DNA from: Terebella lapidaria
Taxonomy: Eukaryota > Annelida > Polychaeta > Terebellida > Terebellidae
DNA length: 64,000 bases
NCBI GenBank assembly: GCA_949152475.1
Contig: OX424555.1
Span: 11,674,868-11,738,867, forward strand
Direction: 5' to 3'
The notes beneath the pieces are model-generated. The model made no database searches. It saw only the letters and a program-made list of their open reading frames with translations, and had not been told where the DNA came from. This document shows positions 3,107-48,100 of this stretch, one piece after another. A program made the position numbers and the translations under genes. How positions within the stretch are numbered: the first letter of the stretch is position 1; each line of letters begins with the position of its first letter.

Positions 3107-6100
3107 GTAAATTGGCATTTTTGCATAAACACTTAACTAGTTGTGTTACCAACACGTGGGCGATAAAAGGGGATACCGCAATCAATACCGGGATACCGGT
3201 ACAAATTCATTGATTGTTTGTCAAATGTGTATCCCCTATGTCCTCTCGGTATATAGATGAGGCCTAGAGGGAACAGTTGTGGAAGATTTCGATTTATTTG
3301 TTGAAAAGATGTGTAATCGATTTCCGTCCCGAGGGTGAATTAGCACTATTCACGGGCAGATCTGTTATTGGGCTGAACTAAGGCTCGCGTGAAGTTAGCT
3401 ACTTGTTACTAGTTCCTTATTCAAATCGAATAAGTAACCAGGAGCTGGCTACTTGTTCAGTCTGGCTACTTATTCAGACATAATTTCATGATGAATCAAG
3501 ACTTGAGTGGCACTGCTGAATGTATCAGTACTATCACCATTCGACCTGGTAAAATATTTTTGGTATATCTAGATCTGCTTATCAGTACGCGAAATATACT
3601 TTTTTGCTTTATTGTAGGTGTGGTACCACCCCCCCCCATCCCCTCATCCCACCCCCTGCTATGCCCCACGAAGTGTTGTGTGGCTGGTGATGCCTGTTAT
3701 CTTTAGTGTATCAGGACCCAACGCTAGTTCAAAGCTGGCCATTTGTCCATTTTAACATAACTTTTTTTATATTCTAATTCTTGAGCCACCTCAAACAAAT
3801 CCTATACTAGTTCGAAGATACATATTAGATATATCAATCAGCATTAGTCCAAGACTGGCTCAAGATTCTATTCTCGAGGTATGACCCATTGAAATGAAAA
3901 CTTAAGGAAGTTGGGTTTTTTTTTCGAATTCGACCAACTTTACGTATTTTCTGACAAAATCCTAATCCTTGAGCCACCCTAACTAATATATTTCTTTGAA
4001 GCAACATATTAGAAGTATCAATCAGCATTAGTTCAAGACTGGCTCAAGATTTCGTTTGCGAGATATGAGCCATTGAAATAAGAACTTAGCAAAATTCACT
4101 TTTTGGGTATATTGACCAACTTTACATATTTTCTGACAAAATCCTAATCCTTGAGCCACCCTAACTAATATATTTCTTTGAAGCAACATATTAGAAGTAT
4201 CATTCAGCATTAGTTCAAGACTGGCTCAAGATTTCGTTTCCGAGATATGACCCATTGAAATAAAAACTTAGCAAAATTCACGTTTTGGGGATTTTGACCA
4301 ACTTTACATATTTTCTGACAAAATCCTAATCCTTGAGCCACCCTAACTGATATACTACTTTGAAGCAACATATTAGAAGTATCAATCAGCATTAGTTCAA
4401 GACTGGCTCAAGATTTCGTTTCCGAGATATGACGCATTGAAATAAAAACTTAGCAAAATTCACTTTTTGGGGATTTTGACCAACTTTACATATTTTCTGA
4501 CAAAATCCTAATCCTTGAGCCACCCTAACTAATATATTACTTTGAAGCAACATATTAGAAGTATCAAGCAGCATTAGTTCAAGACTGGCTCGAGATTTCG
4601 TTTCCGAGATATGACGCATTGAAATAAAAACTTAACAAAATTCACTTTTTGGGTATTTGGACCAACTTTATATATTTTCTGACAAAATCCTAATCCTTGA
4701 GCCACCCTAACTAATATATTTCTTTGAAGCAACATATTAGAAGTATCATTCAGCATTAGTTCAAGACTGGCTCAAGATTTCGTTTCCGAGATATGACCCA
4801 TTGAAATAAAAACTTAGCAAAATTCACGTTTTGGGGATTTTGACCAACTTTACATATTTTCTGACAAAATCCTAATCCTTGAGCCACCCTAACTGATATA
4901 TTACTTTGAAGCAACATATTAGAAGTATCAATCAGCATTAGTTCAAGACTGGCTCAAGATTTCATTTCCGAGATATGACGCATTGAAATAAAAACTTAGC
5001 AAAATTCACTTTTTGGGTATATTGACCAACTTTACATATTTTCTGACAAAATCCTAATCCTTGAGCCACCCTAACTAATATATTTCTTTGAAGCAACATA
5101 TTAGAAGTATCAATCAGCATTAGTTCAAGACTGGCTCAAGATTTCGTTTCTGAGATATGACGCATTGAAATAAAAACTTAGCAAAATTCCTTTTTGGGTA
5201 TTTGGACCAACTTTACATATTTTCTGACAAAATCCTAATCCTTGAGCCACCCTAACTAATATATTACTTTGAAGCAACATATTGGAAGTATCAATCAGCA
5301 TTAGTTCAAGACTGGCTCAAGATTTCGCTTGCGAGATATGACGCATTGAAATAAGAACTTAGCAAAATTCACTTTTTGGGGTATTTGACCAACTTTACAT
5401 ATTTTCTGACAAAATCCTAATCCTTGAGCCACCCTAACTAATATATTACTTTGAAGCAACATATTAGAGGTATCAAGCAGCATTAGTTCAAGACTGGCTC
5501 AAGATTTCGTTTCCGAGATATGACGCATTGAAATAAAAACTTAGCAAAATTCACTTTTTGGGGATTTTGACCAACTTTACAAATTTTCTGACAGAATCCT
5601 AATCCTTGAGCCACCCCAACTAATATACTACCTTGAAGCAACATATTAGAAGTATCAATCAGCATTAGTTCAAGACTGGCTCAAGATTTCGTTTCCGAGA
5701 TATGACGCATTGAAATAAAAACTTAGCAAAATTCACTTTTTGGGTATTTGGACCAACTTTACATATTTTCTGACCAAATCCTAATCCTTGAGCCACCCTA
5801 ACTAATATATTTCTTTGAAGCAACATATTAGAAATATCATTCAGCATTAGTTCAAGACTGGCTCAAGATTTCGTTTCCGAGATATGACGCATTGAAATAA
5901 AAACTTAACAAAATTCACTTTTTGGGTATTTGGACCAACTTTACATATTTTCTGACAAAATCCTAATCCTTGAGCCACCCCAACTAATATATAACTTTGA
6001 AGCAACATATTAGAAGTATCAATCAGCATTAGTTCAAGACTGGCTCAAGATTTCGTTTGCGAGATATGAGCCATTGAAATAAGAACTTAGCAAAATTCAC

Positions 6101-9100
6101 TTTTTGGGTATATTGACCAACTTTACATATTTTCTGACAAAATCCTAATCCTTGAGCCACCCTAACTAATATATTTCTTTGAAGCAACATATTAGAAGTA
6201 TCATTCAGCATTAGTTCAAGACTGGCTCAAGATTTCGTTTCCGAGATATGACCCATTGAAATAAAAACTTAGCAAAATTCACGTTTTGGGGATTTTGACC
6301 AACTTTACATATTTTCTGACAAAATCCTAATCCTTGAGCCACCCTAACTGATATACTACTTTGAAGCAACATATTAGAAGTATCAATCAGCATTAGTTCA
6401 AGACTGGCTCAAGATTTCGTTTCCGAGATATGACGCATTGAAATAAAAACTTAACAAAATTCACTTTTTGGGTATTTGGACCAACTTTATATATTTTCTG
6501 ACAAAATCCTAATCCTTGAGCCACCCTAACTAATATATTTCTTTGAAGCAACATATTAGAAGTATCATTCAGCATTAGTTCAAGACTGGCTCAAGATTTC
6601 GTTTCCGAGATATGACCCATTGAAATAAAAACTTAGCAAAATTCACGTTTTGGGGATTTTGACCAACTTTACATATTTTCTGACAAAATCCTAATCCTTG
6701 AGCCACCCTAACTGATATATTACTTTGAAGCAACATATTAGAAGTATCAATCAGCATTAGTTCAAGACTGGCTCAAGATTTCATTTCCGAGATATGACGC
6801 ATTGAAATAAAAACTTAGCAAAATTCACTTTTTGGGTATATTGACCAACTTTACATATTTTCTGACAAAATCCTAATCCTTGAGCCACCCTAACTAATAT
6901 ATTTCTTTGAAGGAACATATTAGAAGTATCAATCAGCATTAGTTCAAGACTGGCTCAAGATTTCGTTTCTGAGATATGACGCATTGAAATAAAAACTTAG
7001 CAAAATTCCTTTTTGGGTATTTGGACCAACTTTACATATTTTCTGACAAAATCCTAATCCTTGAGCCACCCTAACTAATATATTACTTTGAAGCAACATA
7101 TTGGAAGTATCAATCAGCATTAGTTCAAGACTGGCTCAAGATTTCGCTTGCGAGATATGACGCATTGAAATAAAAACTTAGCAAAATTCACTTTTTGGGG
7201 TATTTGACCAACTTTACATATTTTCTGACAAAATCCTAATCCTTGAGCCACCCTAACTAATATATTACTTTGAAGCAACATATTAGAGGTATCAAGCAGC
7301 ATTAGTTCAAGACTGGCTCAAGATTTCGTTTCCGAGATATGACGCATTGAAATAAAAACTTAGCAAAATTCACTTTTTGGGTATTTTGACCAACTTTACA
7401 AATTTTCTGACAGAATCCTAATCCTTGAGCCACCCCAACTAATATACTACCTTGAAGCAACATATTAGAAGTATCAATCAGCATTAGTTCAAGACTGGCT
7501 CAAGATTTCGTTTCCGAGATATGACGCATTGAAATAAAAACTTAGCAAAATTCACTTTTTGGGTATTTGGACCAACTTTACATATTTTCTGACCAAATCC
7601 TAATCCTTGAGCCACCCTAACTAATATATTTCTTTGAAGCAACATATTAGAAATATCATTCAGCATTAGTTCAAGACTGGCTCAAGATTTCGTTTCCGAG
7701 ATATGACGCATTGAAATAAAAACTTAACAAAATTCACTTTTTGGGTATTTGGACCAACTTTACATATTTTCTGACAAAATCCTAATCCTTGAGCCACCCC
7801 AACTAATATATAACTTTGAAGCAACATATTAGAAGTATCAATCAGCATTAGTTCAAGACTGGCTCAAGATTTCGTTTGCGAGATATGAGCCATTGAAATA
7901 AGAACTTAGCAAAATTCACTTTTTGGGTATATTGACCAACTTTACATATTTTCTGACAAAATCCTAATCCTTGAGCCACCCTAACTAATATATTTCTTTG
8001 AAGCAACATATTAGAAGTATCATTCAGCATTAGTTCAAGACTGGCTCAAGATTTCGTTTCCGAGATATGACCCATTGAAATAAAAACTTAGCAAAATTCA
8101 CGTTTTGGGGATTTTGACCAACTTTACATATTTTCTGACAAAATCCTAATCCTTGAGCCACCCTAACTGATATACTACTTTGAAGCAACATATTAGAAGT
8201 ATCAATCAGCATTAGTTCAAGACTGGCTCAAGATTTCGTTTCCGAGATATGACGCATTGAAATAAAAACTTAACAAAATTCACTTTTTGGGTATTTGGAC
8301 CAACTTTATATATTTTCTGACAAAATCCTAATCCTTGAGCCACCCTAACTAATATATTACTTTGAAGCAACATATTAGAAGTATCAAGCAGCATTAGTTC
8401 AAGACTGGCTCAAGATTTCGTTTCCGAGATATGACGCATTGAAATAAAAACTTAACAAAATTCACTTTTTGGGTATTTGGACCAACTTTATATATTTTCT
8501 GACAAAATCCTAATCCTTGAGCCACCCTAACTAATATATTTCTTTGAAGCAACATATTAGAAGTATCATTCAGCATTAGTTCAAGACTGGCTCAAGATTT
8601 CGTTTCCGAGATATGACCCATTGAAATAAAAACTTAGCAAAATTCACGTTTTGGGGATTTTGACCAACTTTACATATTTTCTGACAAAATCCTAATCCTT
8701 GAGCCACCCTAACTGATATATTACTTTGAAGCAACATATTAGAAGTATCAATCAGCATTAGTTCAAGACTGGCTCAAGATTTCATTTCCGAGATATGACG
8801 CATTGAAATAAAAACTTAGCAAAATTCACTTTTTGGGTATATTGACCAACTTTACATATTTTCTGACAAAATCCTAATCCTTGAGCCACCCTAACTAATA
8901 TATTTCTTTGAAGCAACATATTAGAAGTATCAATCAGCATTAGTTCAAGACTGGCTCAAGATTTCGTTTCTGAGATATGACGCATTGAAATAAAAACTTA
9001 GCAAAATTCCTTTTTGGGTATTTGGACCAACTTTACATATTTTCTGACAAAATCCTAATCCTTGAGCCACCCTAACTAATATATTACTTTGAAGCAACAT

Positions 9101-12100
9101 ATTGGAAGTATCAATCAGCATTAGTTCAAGACTGGCTCAAGATTTCGCTTGCGAGATATGACGCATTGAAATAAAAACTTAGCAAAATTCACTTTTTGGG
9201 GTATTTGACCAACTTTACATATTTTCTGACAAAATCCTAATCCTTGAGCCACCCTAACTAATATATTACTTTGAAGCAACATATTAGAGGTATCAAGCAG
9301 CATTAGTTCAAGACTGGCTCAAGATTTCGTTTCCGAGATATGACGCATTGAAATAAAAACTTAGCAAAATTCACTTTTTGGGTATTTTAACCAACTTTAC
9401 AAATTTTCTGACAGAATCCTAATCCTTGAGCCACCCTAACTAATATATTTCTTTGAAGCAACATATTAGAAATATCATTCAGCATTAGTTCAAGACTGGC
9501 TCAAGATTTCGTTTCCGAGATATGACGCATTGAAATAAAAACTTAACAAAATTCACTTTTTGGGTATTTGGACCAACTTTACATATTTTCTGACAAAATC
9601 CTAATCCTTGAGCCACCCCAACTAATATATAACTTTGAAGCAACATATTAGAAGTATCAATCAGCATTAGTTCAAGACTGGCTCAAGATTTCGTTTGCGA
9701 GATATGAGCCATTGAAATAAGAACTTAGCAAAATTCACTTTTTGGGTATATTGACCAACTTTACATATTTTCTGACAAAATCCTAATCCTTGAGCCACCC
9801 TAACTAATATATTTCTTTGAAGCAACATATTAGAAGTATCATTCAGCATTAGTTCAAGACTGGCTCAAGATTTCGTTTCCGAGATATGACCCATTGAAAT
9901 AAAAACTTAGCAAAATTCACGTTTTGGGGATTTTGACCAACTTTACATATTTTCTGACAAAATCCTAATCCTTGAGCCACCCTAACTGATATACTACTTT
10001 GAAGCAACATATTAGAAGTATCAATCAGCATTAGTTCAAGACTGGCTCAAGATTTCGTTTCCGAGATATGACGCATTGAAATAAAAACTTAGCAAAATTC
10101 ACTTTTTGGGGATTTTGACCAACTTTACATATTTTCTGACAAAATCCTAATCCTTGAGCCACCCTAACTAATATATTACTTTGAAGCAACATATTAGAAG
10201 TATCAAGCAGCATTAGTTCAAGACTGGCTCAAGATTTCGTTTCCGAGATATGACGCATTGAAATAAAAACTTAACAAAATTCACTTTTTGGGTATTTGGA
10301 CCAACTTTATATATTTTCTGACAAAATCCTAATCCTTGAGCCACCCTAACTAATATATTTCTTTGAAGCAACATATTAGAAGTATCATTCAGCATTAGTT
10401 CAAGACTGGCTCAAGATTTCGTTTCCGAGATATGACCCATTGAAATAAAAACTTAGCAAAATTCACGTTTTGGGGATTTTGACCAACTTTACATATTTTC
10501 TGACAAAATCCTAATCCTTGAGCCACCCTAACTGATATATTACTTTGAAGCAACATATTAGAAGTATCAATCAGCATTAGTTCAAGACTGGCTCAAGATT
10601 TCATTTCCGAGATATGACGCATTGAAATAAAAACTTAGCAAAATTCACTTTTTGGGTATATTGACCAACTTTACATATTTTCTGACAAAATCCTAATCCT
10701 TGAGCCACCCTAACTAATATATTTCTTTGAAGCAACATATTAGAAGTATCAATCAGCATTAGTTCAAGACTGGCTCAAGATTTCGTTTCTGAGATATGAC
10801 GCATTGAAATAAAAACTTAGCAAAATTCCTTATTGGGTATTTGGACCAACTTCACATATTTTCTGACAAAATCCTAATCCTTGAGCCACCCTAACTAATA
10901 TATTACTTTGAAGCAACATATTGGAAGTATCAATCAGCATTAGTTCAAGACTGGCTCAAGATTTCGCTTGCGAGATATGACGCATTGAAATAAAAACTTA
11001 GCAAAATTCACTTTTTGGGGTATTTGACCAACTTTACATATTTTCTGACAAAATCCTAATCCTTGAGCCACCCTAACTAATATATTACTTTGAAGCAACA
11101 TATTAGAGGTATCAAGCAGCATTAGTTCAAGACTGGCTCAAGATTTCGTTTCCGAGATATGACGCATTGAAATAAAAACTTACCAAAATTCACTTTTTGG
11201 GTATTTGGACCAACTTTACATATTTTCTGACCAAATCCTAATCCTTGAGCCACCCCAACTAATATACTACCTTGAAGCAACATATTAGAAGTATCAATCA
11301 GCATTAGTTCAAGACTGGCTCAAGATTTCGTTTCCGAGATATGACGCATTGAAATAAAAACTTAACAAAATTCACTTTTTGGGTATTTGGACCAACTTTA
11401 TATATTTTCTGACCAAATCCTAATCCTTGAGCCACCCTAACTAATATATTTCTTTGAAGCAACATATTAGAAATATCATTCAGCATTAGTTCAAGACTGG
11501 CTCAAGATTTCGTTTCCGAGATATGACGCATTGAAATAAAAACTTAACAAAATTCACTTTTTGGGTATTTGGACCAACTTTACATATTTTCTGACAAAAT
11601 CCTAATCCTTGAGCCACCCCAACTAATATATAACTTTGAAGCAACATATTAGAAGTATCAATCAGCATTAGTTCAAGACTGGCTCAAGATTTCGTTTGCG
11701 AGATATGAGCCATTGAAATAAGAACTTAGCAAAATTCACTTTTTGGGTATATTGACCAACTTTACATATTTTCTGACAAAATCCTAATCCTTGAGCCACC
11801 CTAACTAATATATTTCTTTGAAGCAACATATTAGAAGTATCATTCAGCATTAGTTCAAGACTGGCTCAAGATTTCGTTTCCGAGATATGACGCATTGAAA
11901 TATAACTTAGCAAAACTTTACATATTTTCTGACAAAATCCTAATCCTTGAGCCACCCTAACTGATATACTACTTTGAAGCAACATATTAGAAGTATCAAT
12001 CAGCATTAGTTCAAGACTGGCTCAAGATTTCGTTTCCGAGATATGACACATTGAAATAAAAACTTAGCAAAATTCCTTTTTGGGTATTTGGACCAACTTT

Positions 12101-15100
12101 ACAAATTTTCTGACAGAATCCTAATCCTTGAGCCACCCCAACTAATATACTACCTTGAAGCAACATATTAGAAGTATCAATCAGCATTAGTTCAAGACTG
12201 GCTCAAGATTTCGTTTCCGAGATATGACGCATTGAAATAAAAACTTAGCAAAATTCACTTTTTGGGTATTTGGACCAACTTTACATATTTTCTGACCAAA
12301 TCCTAATCCTTGAGCCACCCTAACTAATATATTTCTTTGAAGCAACATATTAGAAATATCATTCAGCATTAGTTCAAGACTGGCTCAAGATTTCGTTTCC
12401 GAGATATGACGCATTGAAATAAAAACTTAACAAAATTCACTTTTTGGGTATTTGGACCAACTTTACATATTTTCTGACAAAATCCTAATCCTTGAGCCAC
12501 CCCAACTAATATATAACTTTGAAGCAACATATTAGAAGTATCAATCAGCATTAGTTCAAGACTGGCTCAAGATTTCGTTTCCGAGATATGACCCATTGAA
12601 ATAAAGTTAGCAAAATGCACTATTTTGTGGATTTTGACCAACTTTACATATTTTCTGACAAAATCCTAATCCTTGAGCCACCCTAATATATTTCTTTGAA
12701 GCAACATATTAGAAGTATCAATTAGCCCTTGTCCCAGGCTGACTCAGGATTTCATTTTCAAACTATGATGTACTGAAATAAGCATTCTTCATGAAATAGA
12801 TTTTTCGTGTATTTGTCCATTTTGACGCAACTTTTCAAATATTCTAATCCTTGAGCCACCTCGAATCCTATGGTATTTCAAAGATACATATTAGATGTAT
12901 CAATCAGCATTAGTCCAAGACTGGCTCAAGATTTCGTTCTCGAGATATGACCCATTGAAACAGAAACTTAGGGAAATTCATTTTAGATTGGATTTTGACC
13001 AATTTTACGTAATTTCTGACAAAATCCTAATCCATGAGCCACCTCATGTGCTTTTCTATTTTGAATACTTATATTGGATATATCAATCAGCATTAGTCCA
13101 AAACTGGCTCAAGATCGTATTCTCGAGATATAACCGATTGAATTGAAAACCCAGGGAAAATCCCTTTTCGAGTATTCTGATCAACTTTAAGTATTTTTAG
13201 AATAAAAATCCCAATGCTTGAGCCAACCTAAGTACTATACTGGTTCGAAGCAACATATCAGATTATGAATTAGCCCTACTCCAAGGCAGACTCAGCATTG
13301 TATTCTCCGAGATATTATGCACTGGAATAGTCTGCATTCTTGACGAAATGGATTTTTTTGGGTGTATTTGTATATATGTAATAATCAACCTAAATCCAAA
13401 GACTGGCTTTAGATTTTATTCGCGAAACATGACCCATACAAGTAAACACGATTTATTTCAAATCCTTTTTTTTCACAGAATCCTGACACCTCAGTCATCC
13501 TAACTAATATACTTTTTTGAAGCATCATCCCGTATTATATTGAATGAACAAACGCAGCAGACACGAGCAAGAGACCATTCAATATTTTTTCTTGTCAGTT
13601 GCATCACTTCGGTAAGAAACGTTTGTTCTTTGTTACTAGGGTTACTGGGGTTGGGAAGGGTGTTTCCACTTGCTTGTGTCTGAGCCAGAGAGTGTATGTT
13701 TTCAAGACAAGGAAATTCGGGAGTGACATAACAATTGTAGTAGCAAAATGAAAGTTATGAACATCAAAACATCTTTGAATATTGTTTTATACAGATAAGA
13801 CAGATAAACCCAAATATAATTTGTTCATGACAATTCAGAAAGTGAGTTATACATTCTGAAATGTAATGTAGTGTTCTCACAGTTAACTTCTCATTCACAG
13901 TTCCCATCGCGTGCACGTGAAACGTAGACGACGTTCTCCAGGAAATAGGCTTGAGGTACTTTTTTGCGATTGGTGACGGTTGGTTTTCCAAGCCCATTGT
14001 ACAAAGTGCCGTCCGGCCATATGGCAACGAAATGATCACCCGTGTTATAGGTAGATGCGTAATGTCTGTACCTGTAAATCATGTGAATAAAAAAATATTA
14101 GCATGCATGATAAATAACCTACATCTTTTGTGACAAGGATTCAGAAGATCATCCTCAGACACAAGATATGTATTATCATTTGTATATATCATTAACACTT
14201 TGCTAGGATCCGGCTACATGTATATGTAATAGACATACTTGTAATTGCCGAACAAACATGCTTCAGTTTTAATTTTGATATATTTGTTTAGCTAGAATTA
14301 TATGTTCACCTGTTCCCGCAAACAGTGATTTCATTGTTGACCGTTGCACTATGCAGAACATCCCCGGTCAGGTAGGTGGGACAAAATACTAGCATCGGTG
14401 GTATCCCAGAAAAGTGTGTGAATCTCCTTTCACTCCAACTGCGCACCCCCATACATCTCGAGCCATCACTACGAAACAAGGAAGTATAAATAATACAATC
14501 CACAAATTGATTTTCATTCTACATGCTCTAAGCCACAACAAGCTATTAGAACCGCAATGTTATGTTACCTCCTTCTCGCAGTGCAAAGTGTTTGATGCTT
14601 TGTCATAAATGCATCCATCATCTGTTGGACAGACAATCCGTTTCCGGCATCAGGTGGGACACTGAAAATTGTTTTCCAAGAAGAACAATTATTTTTCACA
14701 CTATGATAAATATTGTGACAATGTATAATACCGTAGTGGACAAAATAACTGTAATTTGTGTTATGTGCATGTTAAGTCGGCTTGTACTTAATATAATGTG
14801 ACATGCTGACATGGTTGATGTAATAAACAATAATAAAGATAAATAGCATAACTACATTACGTTCACCACATTATTATTCAATTCTGGTTTTTATCATCAC
14901 TTGAGTGTGAAAAGGTATGCAAACATGATATTTACTTCTTGTGTAGCAGTATGATAAGAAGTTACTTACTCTTATGTGATCCAATTACTAGTAACCCCTT
15001 TGCAGCGAAGAGAATTGGGGAAAAATCAAACAAACTGTCAAAGGAATATTTCTGCATAAATATTGGAATAATGTTGAAATATTAGTGTTACCAAACTATG

Positions 15101-18100
15101 AATTGTGTTAGTATAAAAACTAAAAAAGATCTTGTATCTATATATAATTACATTCCAACAGTCATTATCCACAGTTTGTTTTGCATTGATATGGTAATCA
15201 TCAGTCCCTGGAAGATGGAGCGTTAACTTTTCCTTAACTAAAAAAAGAAGATTTCATTAGTTATGGAGAACAGCTCAATTTTTCCTTCATACACTGTACA
15301 ATGGACATTTCTTGTACTCGTCGCACTATGGAACATGCCTAGATGCCGGTAGACCCGTTTGCAGGTTGAACAGAAAACCCCTACTCGGGGGTTGTTGCAA
15401 AATTTATTTTGCACTTCCTGTTGAATTGAACTATCTTGAAAATTGGATAGTGTAGAGCTGCTTGTTGAGGACACTGTCTTTGGACTCTGGACACAAGGCT
15501 GTGATTTATTAGTAAACTTAACTATTATAAGTGGGAAAATAACAACTCTAATTAATGAGAGAAATACTGCTGTTTTCCACTACAGTGCCTACCTCAAATT
15601 TATATCATGTGAAACACTTGAAGATCTCCGATCTGGACAGCGTGGTGATGAACACGAAGATGTCCGGGTTGTTTCCTGAATACCATCAAGATGTTTTACG
15701 AATGTCTCGTGTTCGCTCCCGTATACGTTCCACACCATTTTTGCACTCCGTTTGTTCCGCCCTACCTGGAATCCACATTTTTCTTCTAACCACAATACCT
15801 TGGCTAACCCCCAATCTCCTTTCTCACAGTTGATCCTCATGCGATCTAGAAGATTGCACAATCCTGATGTTTCTATTTGCAAGAAATTATTCTCCGAAAT
15901 GTACCTCATGGTGATGTACAAGAGATTGTGTAACGACCAAGCGGGACCACAGGTCTACTCAAGTGTGTGTGTGAGAGAAGGACAGACTGATAGCCACGCA
16001 GTTATAAATTTCGATAAAACGGCTGTTTATTCACAAACATATGCAATCCAATGCAACCTTAGAAGGTACAAATATTCAAAATATTCAATGCCAGCGCTCA
16101 CGACATGAACATACATGTGATGACCCAGTTCGGGTTTCCGTGTCAGATAGCCCCAAATACTATGTGAAACAGTATGTAAAATTTAACATTACTTCAACAT
16201 TAAAGGCCCAGAACCTGATAGCCTTACACCGTCTGAATATTGTATTTTGGGTAAATGCGCTTTCACTGTATCAAGACCCCAAAAGGAGGGCGATGTAAAT
16301 AAAAATACTGAACACTATAGGAGTCAGTACTCCGAAAATTAGATATATTAGTGCCCAAAAGGACAAATTGGTAGTGTGCTGCCTGTCAGTCAAATATATA
16401 CTTAATCGATGAGCCGCTGTGGCTTTTAGCCAGTGCAGCCGACACACCTACAACTTTGGAAGCTGTAGCCTGGCCGGACTCGAAACCGTATGGGAGTCGA
16501 CACACCTACAACTCAAAGAGCTGTAGCCTGGTCGGACTCGAAACCGTATGGGAGTCGACACGCCTACAACTCAAAGAGCTGTAGCCTGGTCGGACTCGAA
16601 ACCGTATGGGAGTCGACACACCTACAACTCAAAGAGCTGTAGCCTGGTCGGACTCGAATCAGTATAATGTGAGCTGGCACACCTACAACTCAGGGAGTTG
16701 TAGCCTGGCCAACCTATCTTTACTGATAAAATATATGGGAACTGAAATAGCAGCCAGCACACTACCAAATATTACAAAAAATATATACTATAACACCAAC
16801 CTCTCACAATTGGTCCAAAAACTGTAATGTCCGAGCAATGGATACAAGATCCCGGTACAAAAATGCTCCCAACTTGTGCTGTATACTATACTGGTCAAAA
16901 TGCGCTCCTGGTCGTTTCTCCTGGGATTTCAGAATCGCGACTGCCCGAGCCCAAGGGGCTCACTTTCTTTTATAGATCCAGGCTCCGAAGTAGGTCACGG
17001 CAACCTGGATCGCTCTCAGCCAATCCCCAAGGGACTATCCCACCCCAAAATGCCGTTTTATTGCACCCCCACTTCCGGTTAAAACACATGTGAAATCCCG
17101 ACCAAAAATCAGTAAATAAAGGAAATATAACGAATAGCATCCACTGAAAATTATATGCCTAAACCGGCAAAGTCCCTAATCATCAAAAGATGATAAAATG
17201 AAACTATAAAAATACTTATCCCGCCCGAAAACGAGCCCGAAAGAAATCGGCAATTTGTTATATAACGAGCCCACCCTATGTGGAACTCTTCACCTGGCGG
17301 AGTGAAAACTATCAAAACAACGTCGAAGCAAAAGCTCCGAAAATTACAAACAATTCCATGAAATAAAAAGTGTCACAAACACTGTCAGTATAATGTGAAC
17401 ACATAAAAACATGTAAGTAAACCCCCTATATCCATTCCCCAAATGTGGAAACCAGACTCCCCGTAATACATGAAATATTGATAAAAAGTGGTGTGGCAAA
17501 GTGACAACTTTGCCGGCAATACAAAAAAAAAAAATATATCATAGCGCTCCATGTAAAACCATATTCGCCACACTACTCCCCGCTGTGGGGTCCAATGTCC
17601 CCATGGACACCACAAGCTACAAAATATATATACATAAAACATTTAAAAAAACATAGTGTCCATCATAATCAAAGTAGATAACACTGGAGGTCTTCTCTTT
17701 TCCAGGTCGACGTCCTCCCACGAAGTCTCAGGCTGTGGCCTCCCAGTTGGCTGTCCCGCGATGCGGCTCTCCTGGTGGGTTGTCCCACGACGCAACTCTC
17801 CTGGTGGGCTGTCGCACGACGCAGCCCTCCCGGTCGACTGGCCCACGACATGGCTCTCCTGGTGGGCTTTCGCATGACACAGCTCTCCCGGTTGACTGGC
17901 CCATGACGCAGCGCTCCCTGTCAGTGTCTCCATGGCTCTCCTCCCCCAATCGATGGTCCCTTGGCTCGGCTCTCCCGGTCGACGGTCCCATGGCACGACC
18001 CTCCCAGACGGGGGCCCTGCGGCTTGATCAGGGGTCCCAAGGTACAACTCCCCATTCTGGTGCATAGGGCTCCAGCGCACTACTGGGGATTTCGCAACAT

Positions 18101-36100: not shown

Positions 36101-39100
36101 GTGAATTTTGCTAAGTTTTTATTTCAATGCGTCATATCTCGCAAGCGAAATCTTGAGCCAGTCTTGAACTAATGCTGATTGATACTTCCAATATGTTGCT
36201 TCAAAGTAATATATTAGTTAGGGTGGCTCAAGGATTAGGATTTTGTCAGAAAATATGTAAAGTTGGTCCAAATACCCAAAAAGGAATTTTGCTAAGTTTT
36301 TATTTCAATGCGTATTATCTCAGAAACGAAATCTTGAGCCAGTCTTGAACTAATGCTGATTGATACTTCTAATATGTTGCTTCAAAGAAATATATTAGTT
36401 AGGGTGGCTCAAGGATTAGGATTTTGTCAGAAAATATGTAAAGTTGGTCAATATACCCAAAAAGTGAATTTTGCTAAGTTTTTATTTCAATGCGTCATAT
36501 CTCGGAAATGAAATCTTGAGCCAGTCTTGAACTAATGCTGATTGATACTTCTAATATGTTGCTTCAAAGTAATATATCAGTTAGGGTGGCTCAAGGATTA
36601 GGATTTTGTCAGAAAATATGTAAAGTTGGTCAAAATCCCCAAAACGTGAATTTTGCTAAGTTTTTATTTCAATGCGTCATATCTCGGAAACGAAATCTTG
36701 AGCCAGCCTTGAACTAATGCTGATTGATACTTCTAATATGTTGCTTCAAAGAAATATATTAGTTAGGGTGGCTCAAGGATTAGGATTTTGTCAGAAAATA
36801 TGTAAAGTTGGTCAAAATCCCCAAAACGTGAATTTTGCTAAGTTATATTTCAATGCGTCATATCTCGGAAACGAAATGTTGAGCCAGTCTTGAACTAATG
36901 CTGATTGATAATTCTAATATGTTGCTTCAAAGTTATATATTAGTTGGGGTGGCTCAAGGATTAGGATTTTGTCAGAAAATATGTAAAGTTGGTCAAAATC
37001 CCCAAAAAGTGAATTTTGCTAAGTTTTTATTTCAATGCGTCATATCTCGGAAACGAAATCTTGAGCCAGCCTTGAACTAATGCTGGCTGATACTTCTAAT
37101 ATGTTCCTTCAAAGAAATATATTAGTTAGGGTGGCTCAAGGATTAGGATTTTGTCAGAAAATATGTAAAGTTGGTCAAAATACCCAAAAAGTGAATTTCG
37201 CTATGTACTTATTTCAATGCGTCATATCTCGGAAACGAAATCTTGAGCCAGTCTTAAACTAATGCTGATTGATACTTCTAATATGTTGCTTCAAAGAAAT
37301 ATATTAGTTAGGGTGGCTCAAGGATTAGGATTTTGTCAGAAAATATGTAAAGTTGGTCAAAATCCCCAAAAAGTGAATTTTGCTAAGTTTTTATTTCAAT
37401 GCGTCATATCTCGGAAACGAAATCTTGAGCCAGTCTTGAACTAATGCTGATTGATACTTCTAATATGTTGCTTCAAGGTAGTATATTAGTTGGGGTGGCT
37501 CAAGGATTAGGATTCTGTCAGAAAATTTGTAAAGTTGGTCCAAATACCCAAAAAGGAATTTTGCTAAGTTTTTATTTCAATGTGTCATATCTCGGAAACG
37601 AAATCTTGAGCCAGTTTTGAAATAATGCTGATTGATACTTCTAATATGTTGCTTCAAAGTAGTATATCAGTTAGGGTGGCTCAAGGATTAGGATTTTGTC
37701 AGAAAATATGTAAAGTTTTGCTAAGTTATATTTCAATGCGTCATATCTCGGAAACGAAATCTTGAGCCAGTCTTGAACTAATGCTGATTGATACTTCTAA
37801 TATGTTGCTTCAAAGAAATATATTAGTTAGGGTGGCTCAAGGATTAGGATTTTGTCAGAAAATATGTAAAGTTGGTCCAAATACCCAAAAAGTGAATTTT
37901 GTTAAGTTTTTATTTCAATGCGTCATATCTCGGAAACGAAATCTTGAGCCAGTCTTGAACTAATGCTGCTTGATACTTCTAATATGTTGCTTCAAAGTAA
38001 TATATTAGTTAGGGTGGCTCAAGGATTAGGATCTTGTCAGAAAATATGTAAAGTTGGTCAAAATCCCCAAAAAGTGAATTTTGCTAAGTTTTTATTTCAA
38101 TGGGTCATATCTCGGAAACGAAATCTTGAGCCAGCCTTGAACTAATGCTGATTGATACTTCTAATATGTTGCTTCAAAGAAATATATTACTTAGGGTGGC
38201 TCAAGGATTAGCATTTTGTCAGAAAATATATAAAGTTGGTCCAAATACCCAAAAAGTGAATTTTGTTAAGTTTTTATTTCAATGCGTCATATCTCGGAAA
38301 CGAAATCTTGCGCCAGTCTTGAACTAATGCTGCTTGATACTTCTAATATGTTGCTTCAAAGTAATATATTAGTTAGGGTGGCTCAAGGATTAGGATTTTG
38401 TCAGAAAATATGTAAAGTTGGTCAAAATCCCCAAAAAGTGAATTTTGCTAAGTTTTTATTTCAATGCGTCATATCTCGGAAACGAAATCTTGAGCCAGTC
38501 TTGAACTAATGCTGCTTGATACTTCTAATATGTTGCTTCAAAGAAATATATTAGTTAGGGTGGCTCAAGGATTAGGATTTTGTCAGAAAATATGTAAAGT
38601 TGGTCAAAATCCCCAAAAAGTGAATTTTGCTAAGTTTTTATTTCAATGCGTCATATCTCGGAAACGAAATGTTGAGCCAGTCTTGAACTAATGCTGATTG
38701 ATACTTCTAATATGTTGCTTCAAAGAAATATATTAGTTAGGGTGGCTCAAAGATTAGGATTTTGTCAGAAAATATGTAAATTTGGTCAATATACCCAAAA
38801 AGTGAATTTTGCTAAGTTTTTATTTCAATGCGTCATATCTCGGAAATGAAATCTTGAGCCAGTCTTGAACTAATGCTGATTGATACTTCTAATATGTTGC
38901 TTCAAAGTAATATATCAGTTAGGGTGGCTCAAGGATTAGGATTTTGTCAGAAAATATGTAAAGTTGGTCAAAATCCCCAAAACGTGAATTTTGCTAAGTT
39001 TTTATTTCAATGGGTCATATCTCGGAAACGAAATCTTGAGCCAGTTTTGAAATAATGCTGATTGATACTTCTAATATGTTGCTTCAAAGTAGTATATCAG

Positions 39101-42100
39101 TTAGGGTGGCTCAAGGATTAGGATTTTGTCAGAAAATATGTAAAGTTTTGCTAAGTTATATTTCAATGCGTCATATCTCGGAAACGAAATCTTGAGCCAG
39201 TCTTGAACTAATGCTGATTGATACTTCTAATATGTTGCTTCAAAGAAATATATTAGTTAGGGTGGCTCAAGGATTAGGATTTTGTCAGAAAATATGTAAA
39301 GTTGGTCCAAATACCCAAAAAGTGAATTTTGTTAAGTTTTTATTTCAATGCGTCATATCTCGGAAACGAAATCTTGAGCCAGTCTTGAACTAATGCTGCT
39401 TGATACTTCTAATATGTTGCTTCAAAGTAATATATTAGTTAGGGTGGCTCAAGGATTAGGATCTTGTCAGAAAATATGTAAAGTTGGTCAAAATCCCCAA
39501 AAAGTGAATTTTGCTAAGTTTTTATTTCAATGCGTCATATCTCGGAAACGAAATCTTGAGCCAGTCTTGAACTAATGCTGAATGATATTTCTAATATGTT
39601 GCTTCAAAGAAATATATTAGTTAGGGTGGCTCAAGGATTAGGATTTGGTCAGAAAATATGTAAAGTTGGTCAAAATCCCCAAAACGTGAATTTTGCTAAG
39701 TTATATTTCAATGCGTCATATCTCGGAAACGAAATCTTGAGCCAGTCTTGAACTAATGCTGATTGATACTTCTAATATGTTGCTTCAAAGTTATATATTA
39801 GTTGGGGTGGCTCAAGGATTAGGATTTTGTCAGAAAATATGTAAAGTTGGTCAAAATCCCCAAAAAGTGAATTTTGCTAAGTTTTTATTTCAATGCGTCA
39901 TATCTCGGAAACGAAATCTTGAGCCAGTCTTGAACTAATGCTGCTTGATACTTCTAATATGTTGCTTCAAAGTAATATATTAGTTAGGGTGGCTCAAGGA
40001 TTAGGATTTTGTCAGAAAATATGTAAAGTTGGTCAATATACCCAAAAAGTGAATTTTGCTAAGTTTTTATTTCAATGCATCATATCTCGGAAACGAAATC
40101 TTGAGCCAGTCTTGAACTAATGCTGTTTGATACTTCCAATATGTTGCTTCAAGGTAGTATATTAGTTAGGGTGGCTCAAGGATTAGGATTTTGTCAGAAA
40201 ATATGTAAAGTTGGTCAAAATCCCCAAAAAGTGAATTTTGCTAAGTTTTTATTTCAATGCGTCATATCTCGCAAGCAAAATCTTGAGCCAGTCTTGAACT
40301 AATGCTGATTGATACTTCCAATATGTTGCTTCAAAGTAATATATTAGTTAGGGTGGCTCAAGGATTAGGATTTTGTCAGAAAATATGTAAAGTTGGTCCA
40401 AATACCCAAAAAGGAATTTTGCTAAGTTTTTATTTCAATGCGTCATATCTCGGAAATGAAATCTTGAGCCAGTCTTGAACTAATGCTGATTGATACTTCT
40501 AATATGTTGCTTCAAAGAAATATATTAGTTAGGGTGGCTCAAGGATTAGGATTTTGTCAGAAAATATGTAAAGTTGGTCAAAATCCCCAAAACGTGAATT
40601 TTGCTAAGTTTTTATTTCAATGCGTCATATCTCGGAAACGAAATCTTGAGCCAGCCTTGAACTAATGCTGGCTGATACTTCTAATATGTTCCTTCAAAGA
40701 AATATATTAGTTAGGGTGGCTCAAGGATTAGGATTTTGTCAGAAAATATGTAAAGTTGGTCAAAATACCCAAAAAGTGAATTTCGCTATGTACTTATTTC
40801 AATGCGTCATATCTCGGAAACGAAATCTTGAGCCAGTCTTAAACTAATGCTGATTGATACTTCTAATATGTTGCTTCAAAGAAATATATTAGTTAGGGTG
40901 GCTCAAGGATTAGGATTTTGTCAGAAAATATGTAAAGTTGGTCAAAATCCCCAAAAAGTGAATTTTGCTAAGTTTTTATTTCAATGCGTCATATCTCGGA
41001 AACGAAATCTTGAGCCAGTCTTGAACTAATGCTGATTGATACTTCTAATATGTTGCTTCAAAGAAATATATTAGTTAGGGTGGCTCAAGGATTAGGATTT
41101 TGTCAGAAAATATGTAAAGTTGGTCAAAATCCCCAAAACGTGAATTTTGCTAAGTTTTTATTTCAATGCGTCATATCTCGGAAACGAAATCTTGAGCCAG
41201 TCTTGAACAAATGCTGAATGATACTTCTAATATGTTGCTTCAAAGAAATATATTAGTTAGGGTGGCTCAAGGATTAGGATTTTGTCAGAAAATATGTAAA
41301 GTTGGTCAATATACCCAAAAAGTGAATTTTGCTAAGTTTTTATTTCAATGCATCATATCTCGGAAACGAAATCTTGAGCCAGTCTTGAACTAATGCTGAT
41401 TGATACTTCCAATATGTTGCTTCAAGGTAGTATATTAGTTAGGGTGGCTCAAGGATTAGGATTTTGTCAGAAAATATGTAAAGTTGGTCAAAATCCCCAA
41501 AAAGTGAATTTTGCTAAGTTTTTATTTCAATGCGTCATATCTCGCAAGCGAAATCTTGAGCCAGTCTTGAACTAATGCTGATTGATACTTCCAATATGTT
41601 GCTTCAAAGTAATATATTAGTTAGGGTGGCTCAAGGATTAGGATTTTGTCAGAAAATATGTAAAGTTGGTCCAAATACCCAAAAAGGAATTTTGCTAAGT
41701 TTTTATTTCAATGCGTATTATCTCAGAAACGAAATCTTGAGCCAGTCTTGAACTAATGCTGATTGATACTTCTAATATGTTGCTTCAAAGAAATATATTA
41801 GTTAGGGTGGCTCAAGGATTAGGATTTTGTCAGAAAATATGTAAAGTTGGTCAATATACCCAAAAAGTTAATTTTGCTAAGTTTTTATTTCAATGCGTCA
41901 TATCTCGGAAATGAAATCTTGAGCCAGTCTTGAACTAATGCTGATTGATACTTCTAATATGTTGCTTCAAAGTAATATATCAGTTAGGGTGGCTCAAGGA
42001 TTAGGATTTTGTCAGAAAATATGTAAAGTTGGTCAAAATCCCCAAAACGTGAATTTTGCTAAGTTTTTATTTCAATGCGTCATATCTCGGAAACGAAATC

Positions 42101-45100
42101 TTGAGCCAGCCTTGAACTAATGCTGATTGATACTTCTAATATGTTGCTTCAAAGAAATATATTAGTTAGGGTGGCTCAAGGATTAGGATTTTGTCAGAAA
42201 ATATGTAAAGTTGGTCAAAATCCCCAAAACGTGAATTTTGCTAAGTTATATTTCAATGCGTCATATCTCGGAAACGAAATCTTGAGCCAGTCTTGAACTA
42301 ATGCTGATTGATAATTCTAATATGTTGCTTCAAAGTTATATATTAGTTGGGGTGGCTCAAGGATTAGGATTTTGTCAGAAAATATGTAAAGTTGGTCAAA
42401 ATCCCCAAAAAGTGAATTTTGCTAAGTTTTTATTTCAATGCGTCATATCTCGGAAACGAAATCTTGAGCCAGCCTTGAACTAATGCTGGCTGATACTTCT
42501 AATATGTTCCTTCAAAGAAATATATTAGTTAGGGTGGCTCAAGGATTAGGATTTTGTCAGAAAATATGTAAAGTTGGTCAAAATACCCAAAAAGTGAATT
42601 TCGCTATGTACTTATTTCAATGCGTCATATCTCGGAAACGAAATCTTGAGCCAGTCTTAAACTAATGCTGATTGATACTTCTAATATGTTGCTTCAAAGA
42701 AATATATTAGTTAGGGTGGCTCAAGGATTAGGATTTTGTCAGAAAATATGTAAAGTTGGTCAAAATCCCCAAAAAGTGAATTTTGCTAAGTTTTTATTTC
42801 AATGCGTCATATCTCGGAAACGAAATCTTGAGCCAGTCTAGAACTAATGCTGATTGATACTTCTAATATGTTGCTTCAAAGAAATATATTAGTTAGGGTG
42901 GCTCAAGGATTAGGATTTTGTCAGAAAATATGTAAAATTGGTCAAAATACCCAAAAAGTGAATTTTGCTAAGTTTTTATTTCAATGCGTCATATCTCGGA
43001 AACGAAATCTTGAGCCAGTCTTGAACTAATGCTGATTGATACTTCTAATATGTTGCTTCAAAGAAATATATTAGTTAGGGTGGCTCAAGGATTAGGATTT
43101 TGTCAGAAAATATGTAAAGTTGGTCAAAATACCCAAAAAGTGAATTTTACTAAGTTTTTATTTCAATGCGTCATATCTCGGAAACGAAATCTTGAGCCAG
43201 TCTTGAACTAATGCTGATTGATACTTCTAATATGTTGCTTCAAGGTAGTATATTAGTTGGGGTGGCTCAAGGATTAGGATTCTGTCAGAAAATTTGTAAA
43301 GTTGGTCAAAATCCCCAAAAAGTGAATTTTGCTAAGTTTTTATTTCAATGCGTCATATCTCGGAAACGAAATCTTGAGCCAGTCTTGAACTAATGCTGAT
43401 TGATACTTCTGATATGTTGCTTCAAAGAAATATATTAGTTAGGGTGGCTCAAGGATTAGGATTTTGTCAGAAAATACGTAAAGTTGGTCGAATTGGAAAA
43501 AAAAGAAAGATTTTCCTTAAATTTTTATTTCAATGGGTCATACCTCGAGAATAGAATCATGAGCCAGTCTTGGACTAATGCTGATTGATACATCTAATAT
43601 GTATCTTCGAAATAATATAGGAATTGAGGTGGCTCAAGGATTAGAATATTTGAAAAGTTACGTTAGAATGGACAAATACACGAAAAATCTATTTCATGAA
43701 GAATGCTTATTTCAGTACATCATAGTTTAAAAATGAAATCCTGAGCCAGCCTGGGACAAGGGCTAATTGATACTTCTAATATGTTGGTTTAAGGTAGTAC
43801 ATTAGTTAGGGTGGCTCAAGGATTAGGATTTTGTCAGAAAATATGTATAGTTGGTCAAAATACCCAAAAAGTGAATTTTGCTAAGTTTTTATTTCAATGC
43901 GTCATATCTCGGAAACGAAATCTTGAGCCAGTCTTGAACTAATGCCGATTGATACCTCTAATATGTTGCTTCAAAGAAATATATTAGTTAGGGTGGCTCA
44001 AGGATTAGGATTTTGTCAGAAAATATGTAAAATTGGTTGAAATACCCAAAAAGTGAATTTTGCTACATGTAAGTTTTTATTTCAATGCGTCATATCTCGG
44101 AAACGAAATCTTGAGCCAGTCTTGAACTAATGCCGATTGATACTTCTAATATGTTGCTTCAAAGAAAAATATTAGTTAGGGTGGCTCAATGATTAGGCTT
44201 TTGTCAGAAAATATGTAAAGTTGGTCAAAATACCCAAAAAGTGAATTTCGCTAAGTTTTTATTTCAATGCGTCATATCTCGGAAACGAAATCTTGAGCCA
44301 GTCTTAAACTAATGCTGATTGATACTTCTAATATGTTGCTTCAAGGTAGTATATTAGTTGGGGTGGCTCAAGGATTAGGATTTTGTCAGAAAATATGTAA
44401 AGTTGGTCAAAATACCCAAAAAGTGATTTTTGCTAAGTTTTCATTTCAATGGGTCATATCTCGGAAATGAAATCTTGCGCCAGTCTTGAACTAATGCTGA
44501 TTGATACTTCTAATATGTTGCTTCAATGTAATATATTAGTTTGGGTGGCTCAAGGATTAGGATTTTGTCAGAAAATACGTAAAGTTGGTCGATTTCGAAA
44601 ATAAATAACGAACTTCCTTAAGTTTTTATTTCAATGGGTCATACCTCGAGAATAGAATCCTGAGCCAGTCTTGGACTAATGCTGATTGATATATCTAATA
44701 TGTATCTTCGAACTAGTATAGGATTTAAGGTGGCTCAAGAATTAGAATATCAAAAAAGTTATGTTAAAATGGACAAATGGCCAGCTTTGAACCAGCGTTG
44801 GGTCCTGATACACTAAAGCTAACAGGCATCACCAGCTACACAACCCTCCGTGGGGCATAGCAGGGGGTGGGGTGAGGGAGAGGGGGGGGGGGGGGGGGTT
44901 GGTACCACACCTACAATAAAGCAAAAAAGTATATTTCGCGTAATGATAAGCAGATGTAGATATACCAAAAATATTTTACCAGGTCGAATGGTGATACATT
45001 CAACAGTGCCACTCAAGTCTTGATTCATCAGGAAATTATGTCTGAATAAGTAGCCAGACTGAATAAGTAGCCAGCTCCTGGTTACTTATTCGATTTGAAT

Positions 45101-48100
45101 AAGGAACTAGTAACAAGTAGCTAACTTCACGCCGGTCTGAACTAAGGGTGAATGAGCGCGAGCTCAGACGCTCCGCGTCGCTCAGGCTGCTATATGCCGA
45201 GAGGACATAGGCGATACATATTTGACAAACAATCAATGACTTTATCAGGAAACACGAACCAGATTTGGACAACTTGATACATCTCATGGGCGCATCCAAT
45301 TTTCCAGCTGTATTGACCTCACAATTCACTTGGTATATATTCCTAGTGAATATCTATATTCCTCTCGGCATATAGATGAGGCCTAGAAGGTACAGTTGTG
45401 GAAGATTTTGATTTATAAGTTGAAAAGATGTCCAAACGATTTCCGTCCCGAGGGTGAATGACAGCCATCTAAGATGCTCCGCGTCGCTCAGGCTGGTCTA
45501 CTCTAGTCACTACCAAAGAGCCTAAAATACCAAGAGCGGGCACTCGTATTTCCGAACTGACCACTCCTCCAGTGGCGATTAAACATATAACTCACAAGAT
45601 ATTGCCCGGTAGTGCCGTCGTGAGCAGTGTGTGAGCAGGTCGCTCCTGCTCTGGCGATGTTGGTCTATTGTTTGATTTGTCACCATATGGTTGAATGGAA
45701 GTGCCGCCTCTTGGTATTTTAGGCTCTTTGGTCTCTAGAAGCTAGGCCAGGCTAGACTAGGGTGTACACCACTTCGAGTTCAATCGGTAACTGGTAATAG
45801 ATGAGTGCATATTTAGTGGTGTGATATCGTGCACGTATGTTTACCTTGGCAACCTGAGCTGAGATTATCAGATTATATGGCTGTTACTAAGTATTGGTTA
45901 CTCTATAAAGCTGGTCATATCTATGGACAGCCTGAGCGACGCGGAGCGTCTGAGATCGCACTCATACACCTTCGTGACGGAAAGCAATTAAACATCTTTT
46001 CAACAAATAAATCAAAATCTTCCACAACTGTTCCTTCTAGGCCATATCTATATGCTGAGAGGACATAGGGGATACACATTTGACAAGCAATCAATGACTT
46101 TATCACTGAATATTCCCAACTTGAAAACTCGAACCATATTTCACAAGCTCACGGCCGGGTCATGGGCATCATCCCCTATGTCCTCTCGTTATAAATTTCT
46201 TATCCTGAATTAGTGTAGAGCCTACACAGCTGCTACACAGAGTGTTGGTTTTTGCCAGTTTCATGCATGGATAAGAATAGTCCTATCTCTAAGACAGTGT
46301 TACAGTTGCAGAACTATGTTAAGAGAAAGGGCACCAGGGTCTATTTAGAAGCCAAACCTGCCCCAGCCCAAACGATGCGGAGCGCGTCCTAGATGGCCCA
46401 CATTGGTGCTTGGGACGATAACAAACAAATCACGATTATGATGATTTACGGGCTGACACACAAACTATTAGTATTGTATGTATGCTGATACACGAGAGGA
46501 CCCAAATTACATATGATAACTCAACTAATTACCTCGATGTATTGCTCAAAATCCCCTCCAAATATCACTAATCCTTCCTGGTAAAATTTGTGGTCGGTGT
46601 CTACCAAGGCTAAAGTCAATGTTTGGAGGGTATTTTCAACAATATTTTGGGGGTATTTAAGTGCGTTTTCTTACATAATTTGGGTCCTCTCTGAGTGAAT
46701 ACGAAAAGACACTTTGGGGTGTCAACCCAACTAACTGTCATAATCATGATTTGTTTGTTTTCGTCCCGAGCACCAATGTGGGCCATCTTGGACGCGCTCC
46801 ACGTCGCTTGGGCTGAACCTGCCCATGAGTATTGATGAATCTGCTCTGATGGGAGTAATGAATCTAATGATAATAATATTTAGTGATAATAAAGTGATCC
46901 TTGCCATGCACAAAACTCCTAATATTGGACCTACAATGTTGTATGATTTGATGATTTCCGCTTTTCAGCCTATCCAAGGTTCCGCTATTGTTGTGATACA
47001 TCCCGGCTCTTGTAACCTGCGACTAGGCAGAGCAGCAGACACATTCCCACACACACTGCCTCACTGCATAGCACGCCGACATAAAAGACCAGGAAAACAA
47101 TCTTTCTATGAGGACCCACTTCTACTCAGGCCAAATGATGAGGTGGGTTTGCCATGTGTGATTTTACTGCTGGGATTTTTTTTTTTTTTTTTTTTGTTTA
47201 AACGTAATTTATTTTGCGAGGATTTTCACACGCATTTATGCACAAGGTGAGTCTCCTCGTCCAGAACGAGTGAGGTACCAGATGTTCTGCAATTAATGAT
47301 ATACAATTGTTACCGAAAACGCTGTGTTTATGGAGTTCTAGTCTCAAGACCTAGCTAAAGTACTAAATGTAATATACATGATATATTTACCGTAATATTT
47401 GCCATAATGTTTTCTTCAATACTGTAAAACGACTAATTTTGGCGGCTATTAAATTTGGCAGTTGTGAGCCCAACGTTATTTGGCGGAGATTTAATTTGGC
47501 GGTTTTAAGACCACTTACATTTCTTAAAGGGCCACTGTATGGGATTCGGCTTTTGGGGGATTTCCAAGATTTTTCTCCCGACGCTTCTATTTATAGAACG
47601 AAAGGTCAGATTACGTTTTTGACCCAGAATCTCCGAGCAAATTGTCAGATCAGCCCAGGTCGGCTCGGCAGAGATCCTAGGCCAAAAACGTCATCTGACG
47701 TTTTGTTCTATAAATAGAAGCGTCGGGAGAAAAATCTTGGAAATCCCCTAAAAGCCGAATCCCATACAGTGGCCCTTTAACATATAGCTAGTTAATTTTT
47801 CCCCAACCGCCAAATCCGCCAAATAAATGTCCGCCAAAATTAGTAGTTTTACAGTAGTGTTGAATGCAACCAGAAACCCATAAGAGACATCTCTCTTATG
47901 GGTTTCTGATGCCATCATACTACAATGTCATCATAGCGCATAAAGTAATGAGCATTATCTCCATTTCTGTAGCACTCACAGGCAGAAACACTGAGAGAAT
48001 GGGGTCTAAAACATGCAACTCAAACACTCGCAAACAAATCCACAAGCTCAAATCAACCACGACAAACCACAACGGAAGAACAGGTAAACATGAACCTGGT

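Follow-up and report, generated by a model that had tools for sequence, protein, structure and literature searches.

A probable giant MULE-group DNA transposon with 10-kb satellite arms in the annelid Terebella lapidaria

A stretch of 64,000 nucleotides of Terebella lapidaria (GenBank assembly GCA_949152475.1, contig OX424555.1, positions 11,674,868 to 11,738,867, forward strand; hereafter the window, in whose numbering all positions are given) was analysed at one locus, a large element at 3384–45136 (41,753 bp; ca. 34 kb without a nested long terminal repeat (LTR) retrotransposon). Two arms of tandem 182-bp units, each closed on the outside by a unique end, lie in inverted orientation around a loop that carries a gene for a predicted transposase. 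The arms are composed as follows:

3384–13390 and 34541–45136: the two arms, in inverted orientation
3384–3773, plus strand: left unique outer end, matching the right outer end
3768–13390, plus strand: left satellite array (outer-type, 48 canonical, inner-type, outer-like and two degenerate units)
34541–44750, minus strand: right satellite array (outer-type, 4 canonical, inner-type, outer-type, 48 canonical and inner-type units, partial unit)
44746–45136, minus strand: right unique outer end, matching the left outer end

Self-comparison of the window gave one dominant inverted pair, 3387–13329 against 45132–35210 (92.4% identity, 10,022 columns). The outer ends (ca. 385 bp of unique sequence each) mirror each other with 15 substitutions in 378 aligned bases; the element starts with GCGTGAAG and the outer end reads from GCGTGAAGTTAGCTACTTG. 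An initial annotation of the stretch had claimed two inverted arms of about 10 kb, about 50 tandem units of about 182 bp in each and matching unique outer ends, and all of these were recovered; its element coordinates were correct within a few bases and were refined to 3384–45136.

Tandem Repeats Finder placed 182-bp arrays at 3774–13262 and 34693–44745. Segmentation against a 182-bp consensus gave 55 segments on the left and 58 on the right; after removal of four partial ones, 53 units were counted in the left arm (48 canonical, 5 divergent) and 56 in the right (52 canonical, 4 divergent), 109 in total. The 100 canonical units matched the consensus to 94.5–98.9%, with four exceptions (26-bp deletion in L45, R31 and R39; 6-base insertion in R4). 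Most of the divergent units were of outer type (L1, R1, R7 and, more distantly, L51) or of inner type (L50, R6, R56), and the inner-outer junction L50–L51 matched R6–R7 at 88.6% over 367 columns. Both arms thus seem to be built on one plan of two modules, of which a different one was expanded in each. The expanded modules (3956–12659 and 34789–43465) hold 48 canonical units each, though modules and unit orders differ; the equal count may be a coincidence. An origin of the satellite unit from the unique outer end was considered and found unsupported (28 of 200 and 15 of 200 shuffles scored equally high). The right flank contains another satellite, of 147 bp (50658–52046), which has the 14-mer ATATCTCGGAAACG in common with the arm unit; seven exact copies of this 14-mer lie outside the arms.

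Blocks of units recur within each arm, with exact copies up to 976 bp long in the left arm and up to 1,015 bp in the right. At lags picked after the lag table had been viewed, pairs of units with at most one base different made up 42 of 119 in the left arm (lags 10, 11, 21 and 31 units; 65 of 1,128 among all pairs) and 10 of 22 in the right arm (lag 30; 31 of 1,326 among all pairs); at lags 8 and 10 of the right arm near-identical pairs were few (3 of 44 and 4 of 42). Between the arms the mean difference per unit was 7.8, against 7.5 and 7.6 within them, and no unit-by-unit register was seen. When bases present at least twice per arm were counted, 0 of 182 columns were fixed for different bases between the arms, and 23 columns had shared polymorphism. 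Seven unit pairs were identical across the arms, whereas 200 column shuffles, a null model that takes no account of linkage, gave 0.27 on average and never more than 4.

The longest exact inverted tract was 486 bp, joining the outer part of the left arm (4296–4781) to the inner part of the right arm (35358–34873); at the outer-end divergence of 4.0% the chance of an exact match for one given stretch of this length is ca. 3e-9. Sequence was probably exchanged between the arms when their ends had already diverged. The lack of any column fixed between the arms, together with exact inverted tracts of up to 486 bp despite separate module expansion, suggests that the arms homogenise each other. Foldback pairing may be the means and would be the simplest route of exchange, exchange with other copies being the alternative.

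Two direct repeats were found at the insertion site:

3332–3340: 9-bp direct repeat AGGGTGAAT, left copy, where the host repeat breaks off
3373–3383: 11-bp direct repeat CTGAACTAAGG, left copy, inferred target-site duplication
45137–45147: 11-bp direct repeat CTGAACTAAGG, right copy, inferred target-site duplication
45145–45153: 9-bp direct repeat AGGGTGAAT, right copy, overlapping the right 11-bp repeat

The 11-bp repeat abuts both ends of the element, and these are its only two occurrences in the same orientation in the window; only 1 of 20,000 random flank pairs (24-bp windows) reached 11 bp. The sequence around the site belongs to a dispersed host repeat. Two paralogous copies in the right flank (46140–45881, reversed, and 45331–45560) run unbroken across the corresponding point, and because they do so the locus is very likely an insertion. 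Compared with these paralogues the host repeat breaks at AGGGTGAAT. A 40-bp segment (3341–3380) separates the left 9-bp repeat from the part of the left 11-bp repeat in which the two repeats overlap; it had no significant similarity to the element ends or to the rest of the window, which leaves its interpretation as a remnant of the end of an earlier copy unsupported. The preferred reading has one event nested in another: 40 bp were first inserted with a 9-bp repeat, and the giant element followed with an 11-bp repeat. Host-repeat copies in both orientations crowd the site (3203–3343, 45145–45240, 45331–45495 and 45928–46101).

The loop holds the transposase gene and a retrotransposon nested in it:

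15589–15924, minus strand: C-terminal piece of the transposase gene past the LTR insertion (111 codons and stop)
15929–23584, minus strand: nested gag-only LTR retrotransposon, splitting the transposase gene
23585–28042, minus strand: main piece of the transposase gene (22-amino-acid acidic repeats, PHD finger, predicted WRKY-like domain, predicted DDE core)

The open frame of the loop comprises 1,486 codons from ATG and contains a PHD finger (PF00628, E 9e-08, 32.5 bits; cut-off 24). In members of the MULE superfamily, a CxxH motif stands between the second D and the E of the DDE core; the predicted core residues here are D1041, D1116, C1163–H1166 (CxxH) and E1357, in the MULE arrangement. 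In 14 aligned rows the first D was invariant and the second nearly so, and the E was aligned in the three rows that reach it. Fifteen relatives of the transposase were found; the main piece matched one of them (P0001) with 44% identity over 596 amino acids, and the C-terminal piece matched the C-terminus of the same relative (38% identity, E 9e-24). The gene was probably open until a recent retrotransposon insertion. Being split, it would leave this copy in need of an intact one, if such exists, to move it in trans. An in-frame 66-bp minisatellite (26010–27578) encodes the 22-amino-acid acidic/serine repeats; 27 of 32 codon differences among 15 neighbouring units change the residue.

The nested retrotransposon is young; it has LTRs of 1,644 bp that differ at two positions and hold a 58-bp tandem repeat, a 4-bp direct repeat (ATTG) and a gag open reading frame with a zinc knuckle; a second, repeat-rich frame beside gag (17643–19571, minus strand) gave no Pfam match up to E 1 and no pol. 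Elsewhere in the loop an inverted pair of ca. 170 bp (93%) at 32046–32591 is perhaps a small nested inverted-repeat element.

The tandem units of FB and FB-NOF elements are much smaller than 182 bp, and we know of no PHD finger in NOF. For Rehavkus, the text available in PMC6446971 describes a MULE-like element characterised by a PHD finger and by terminal repeats of 26–400 bp, with a minisatellite ahead of the 3' inverted repeat and duplications of 9 bp, known from insects and annelids; an excerpt of PMC10218199 gives Rehavkus-1_TC short arrays, mostly of five and eight monomers of 164 bp, in 9.5 kb. As far as these excerpts go, the PHD finger, satellite-sized tandem units inside inverted termini (here a 182-bp satellite in both) and one main open reading frame are common to Rehavkus and the present element, which differs in its 41.8 kb, its 53 and 56 units and its 11-bp repeat. 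The latter touches the ends, whereas a repeat of the 9-bp Rehavkus length is found at 45145–45153 on the right and, on the left, 40 bp farther from the element. Because a PHD finger and a satellite in inverted termini make up the published Rehavkus design, the element may be called Rehavkus-like on these two features; this is a better match in kind than FB-NOF, an architectural analogue.

Other known systems are alike in part, as far as the excerpts cited describe them. Tetris of Drosophila virilis is a foldback element in which tandem units of ca. 220 bp follow a unique outer domain; it has 8–10-bp duplications, and its units also form satellite-like arrays; it differs in inverted repeats of at most 1,735 bp, and no protein-coding capacity was seen in it (PMC4079207). 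Galileo (Drosophila, P superfamily) has long inverted repeats with ca. 210-bp internal tandem units, unequal in number between the two arms of one copy, but a P-type transposase, 7-bp duplications and inverted repeats of up to ca. 1.26 kb with two or three units (PMC3573991); the repeat found here is of 11 bp (or 9 bp), not 7 bp. Teratorn (fish, piggyBac-type; 41–182 kb) differs in its piggyBac-like transposase, herpesvirus genes and 18-bp terminal repeats, and the partial text available does not mention satellite arms. For arthropod MULEs an excerpt of PMC13359780 gives terminal repeats of 13–1,193 bp in the running text; one row of a table goes up to 1,527 bp. Foldback arms of ca. 10 kb were not noticed among the papers listed by searches of an open-licence library, which leaves out Repbase reports and most subscription papers.

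The locus probably arose when one giant cut-and-paste DNA transposon of the MULE group inserted there; in design the element comes nearest to Rehavkus, and its terminal inverted repeats have likely expanded into satellite arrays of 10 kb. The initial annotation is supported in so far as it saw a DNA transposon of foldback type, very large and satellite-armed, around a transposase predicted to be of MULE type (PHD finger; D, D, CxxH, E), and it gives way on the FB-NOF label, the Rehavkus design being closer. A true FB-NOF-type foldback, with the arms as the FB part and the loop as a NOF-like passenger, would account for inverted arms of tandem units around a MULE-type gene, and FB4 has repetitive ends and 9–10-bp duplications according to an excerpt of PMC8277862; the same excerpt gives the FB4 arms only ca. 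700 bp, and the PHD finger with satellite-sized units suits the published Rehavkus design, so that this origin is judged distinctly improbable. Nearly as improbable, though slightly less so, is the capture of a pre-existing ordinary euchromatic satellite by a smaller Rehavkus-like element, the arrays then not being functional ends. At the one locus analysed, the unit and the outer end have no significant similarity beyond that of shuffled sequence, as capture would allow; both arrays, however, stand directly behind the matching outer end, mirrored and with common edge units, the inner-outer junction is common to both arms, and Rehavkus-1_TC has the same layout with a different unit in the part of PMC10218199 available.

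A single insertion with a 9-bp duplication of AGGGTGAAT, in which the element would also take in 40 more bases on the left and 8 more on the right, has more in its favour and is unlikely rather than improbable: Rehavkus duplications are listed as 9 bp (excerpt of PMC6446971), and the host-repeat paralogues are continuous exactly at the 9-bp repeat. It would leave an 11-bp repeat that touches matched inverted ends to chance, at 1 in 20,000, and the 40 bases on the left have no counterpart on the right. Least probable by far is an artefact of assembly, for example if the assembler had copied one array in reverse. Near-identical long arrays assemble poorly, and the basis here is the assembled sequence; yet the arms are unlike in the order of their units, in their blocks, in the layout of the modules and in the sequence of the outer ends, and the direct repeat exactly bounds the arm pair.

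In the flanks, one exon of ACTR8 was found to the right of the element (ca. 46,966–47,133), and no ACTR8 exon 1 was seen in the left flank, where the frames were read by eye; the location in ACTR8 intron 1 that had been assigned to the element was not confirmed. The segment 52745–53131 was tried as ACTR8 and gave no convincing match among solved structures. The right flank also contains a tandem array on a 55-bp base unit (53486–54534) and an aquaporin-like coding exon (61060–61794, minus strand; MIP, E 4.1e-41). No relatives of the locus were confirmed in viral contigs or genome contigs, the collections being viral and prokaryotic and hence little informative; a 24-base motif of the unit had 0 exact matches in the viral contigs.

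For the transposon proposed above the following course may be envisaged. The transposase would recognise the unique outer ends, perhaps also sites in the units, and would excise and insert the element with an 11-bp (or 9-bp) duplication; each arm would grow internally, through unequal exchange or slippage, in keeping with the multi-unit blocks and exact copies of up to ca. 1 kb; and foldback of the element would pair the arms for gene conversion, so that they remain one sequence pool. New are the scale, with 10-kb arms of 53 and 56 units where the published arrays have mostly five and eight monomers, and the record, in the units, of arms that expanded different modules while sharing sequence. 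Of the much larger foldback class that had been proposed, the scale is borne out at this locus. Satellite ends have already been published, with a unit of 164 bp in Rehavkus-1_TC and of 220 bp in Tetris, so that the element is better described as a giant variant than as a new class.

A wider reading is possible, although somewhat less probable than its opposite: a metazoan transposon with self-homogenising satellite ends, whose arms grow to 10 kb by expansion of their own modules, are kept as one pool by foldback, and are delivered by the transposase, as two complete arrays at once, into gene-bearing DNA. The locus extends foldback arms from ca. 1–2 kb in the published cases compared to 10 kb, and this has a bearing on whether a transposase could unite such distant ends. 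It has long been asked what brings satellite DNA into euchromatin and what keeps it uniform across scattered sites, and the locus seems to hold both halves of an answer, the satellite as transposon ends and a unit-by-unit record of sharing and separate expansion; the wider reading, if true, would be a direct route for the origin and spread of euchromatic satellite arrays.
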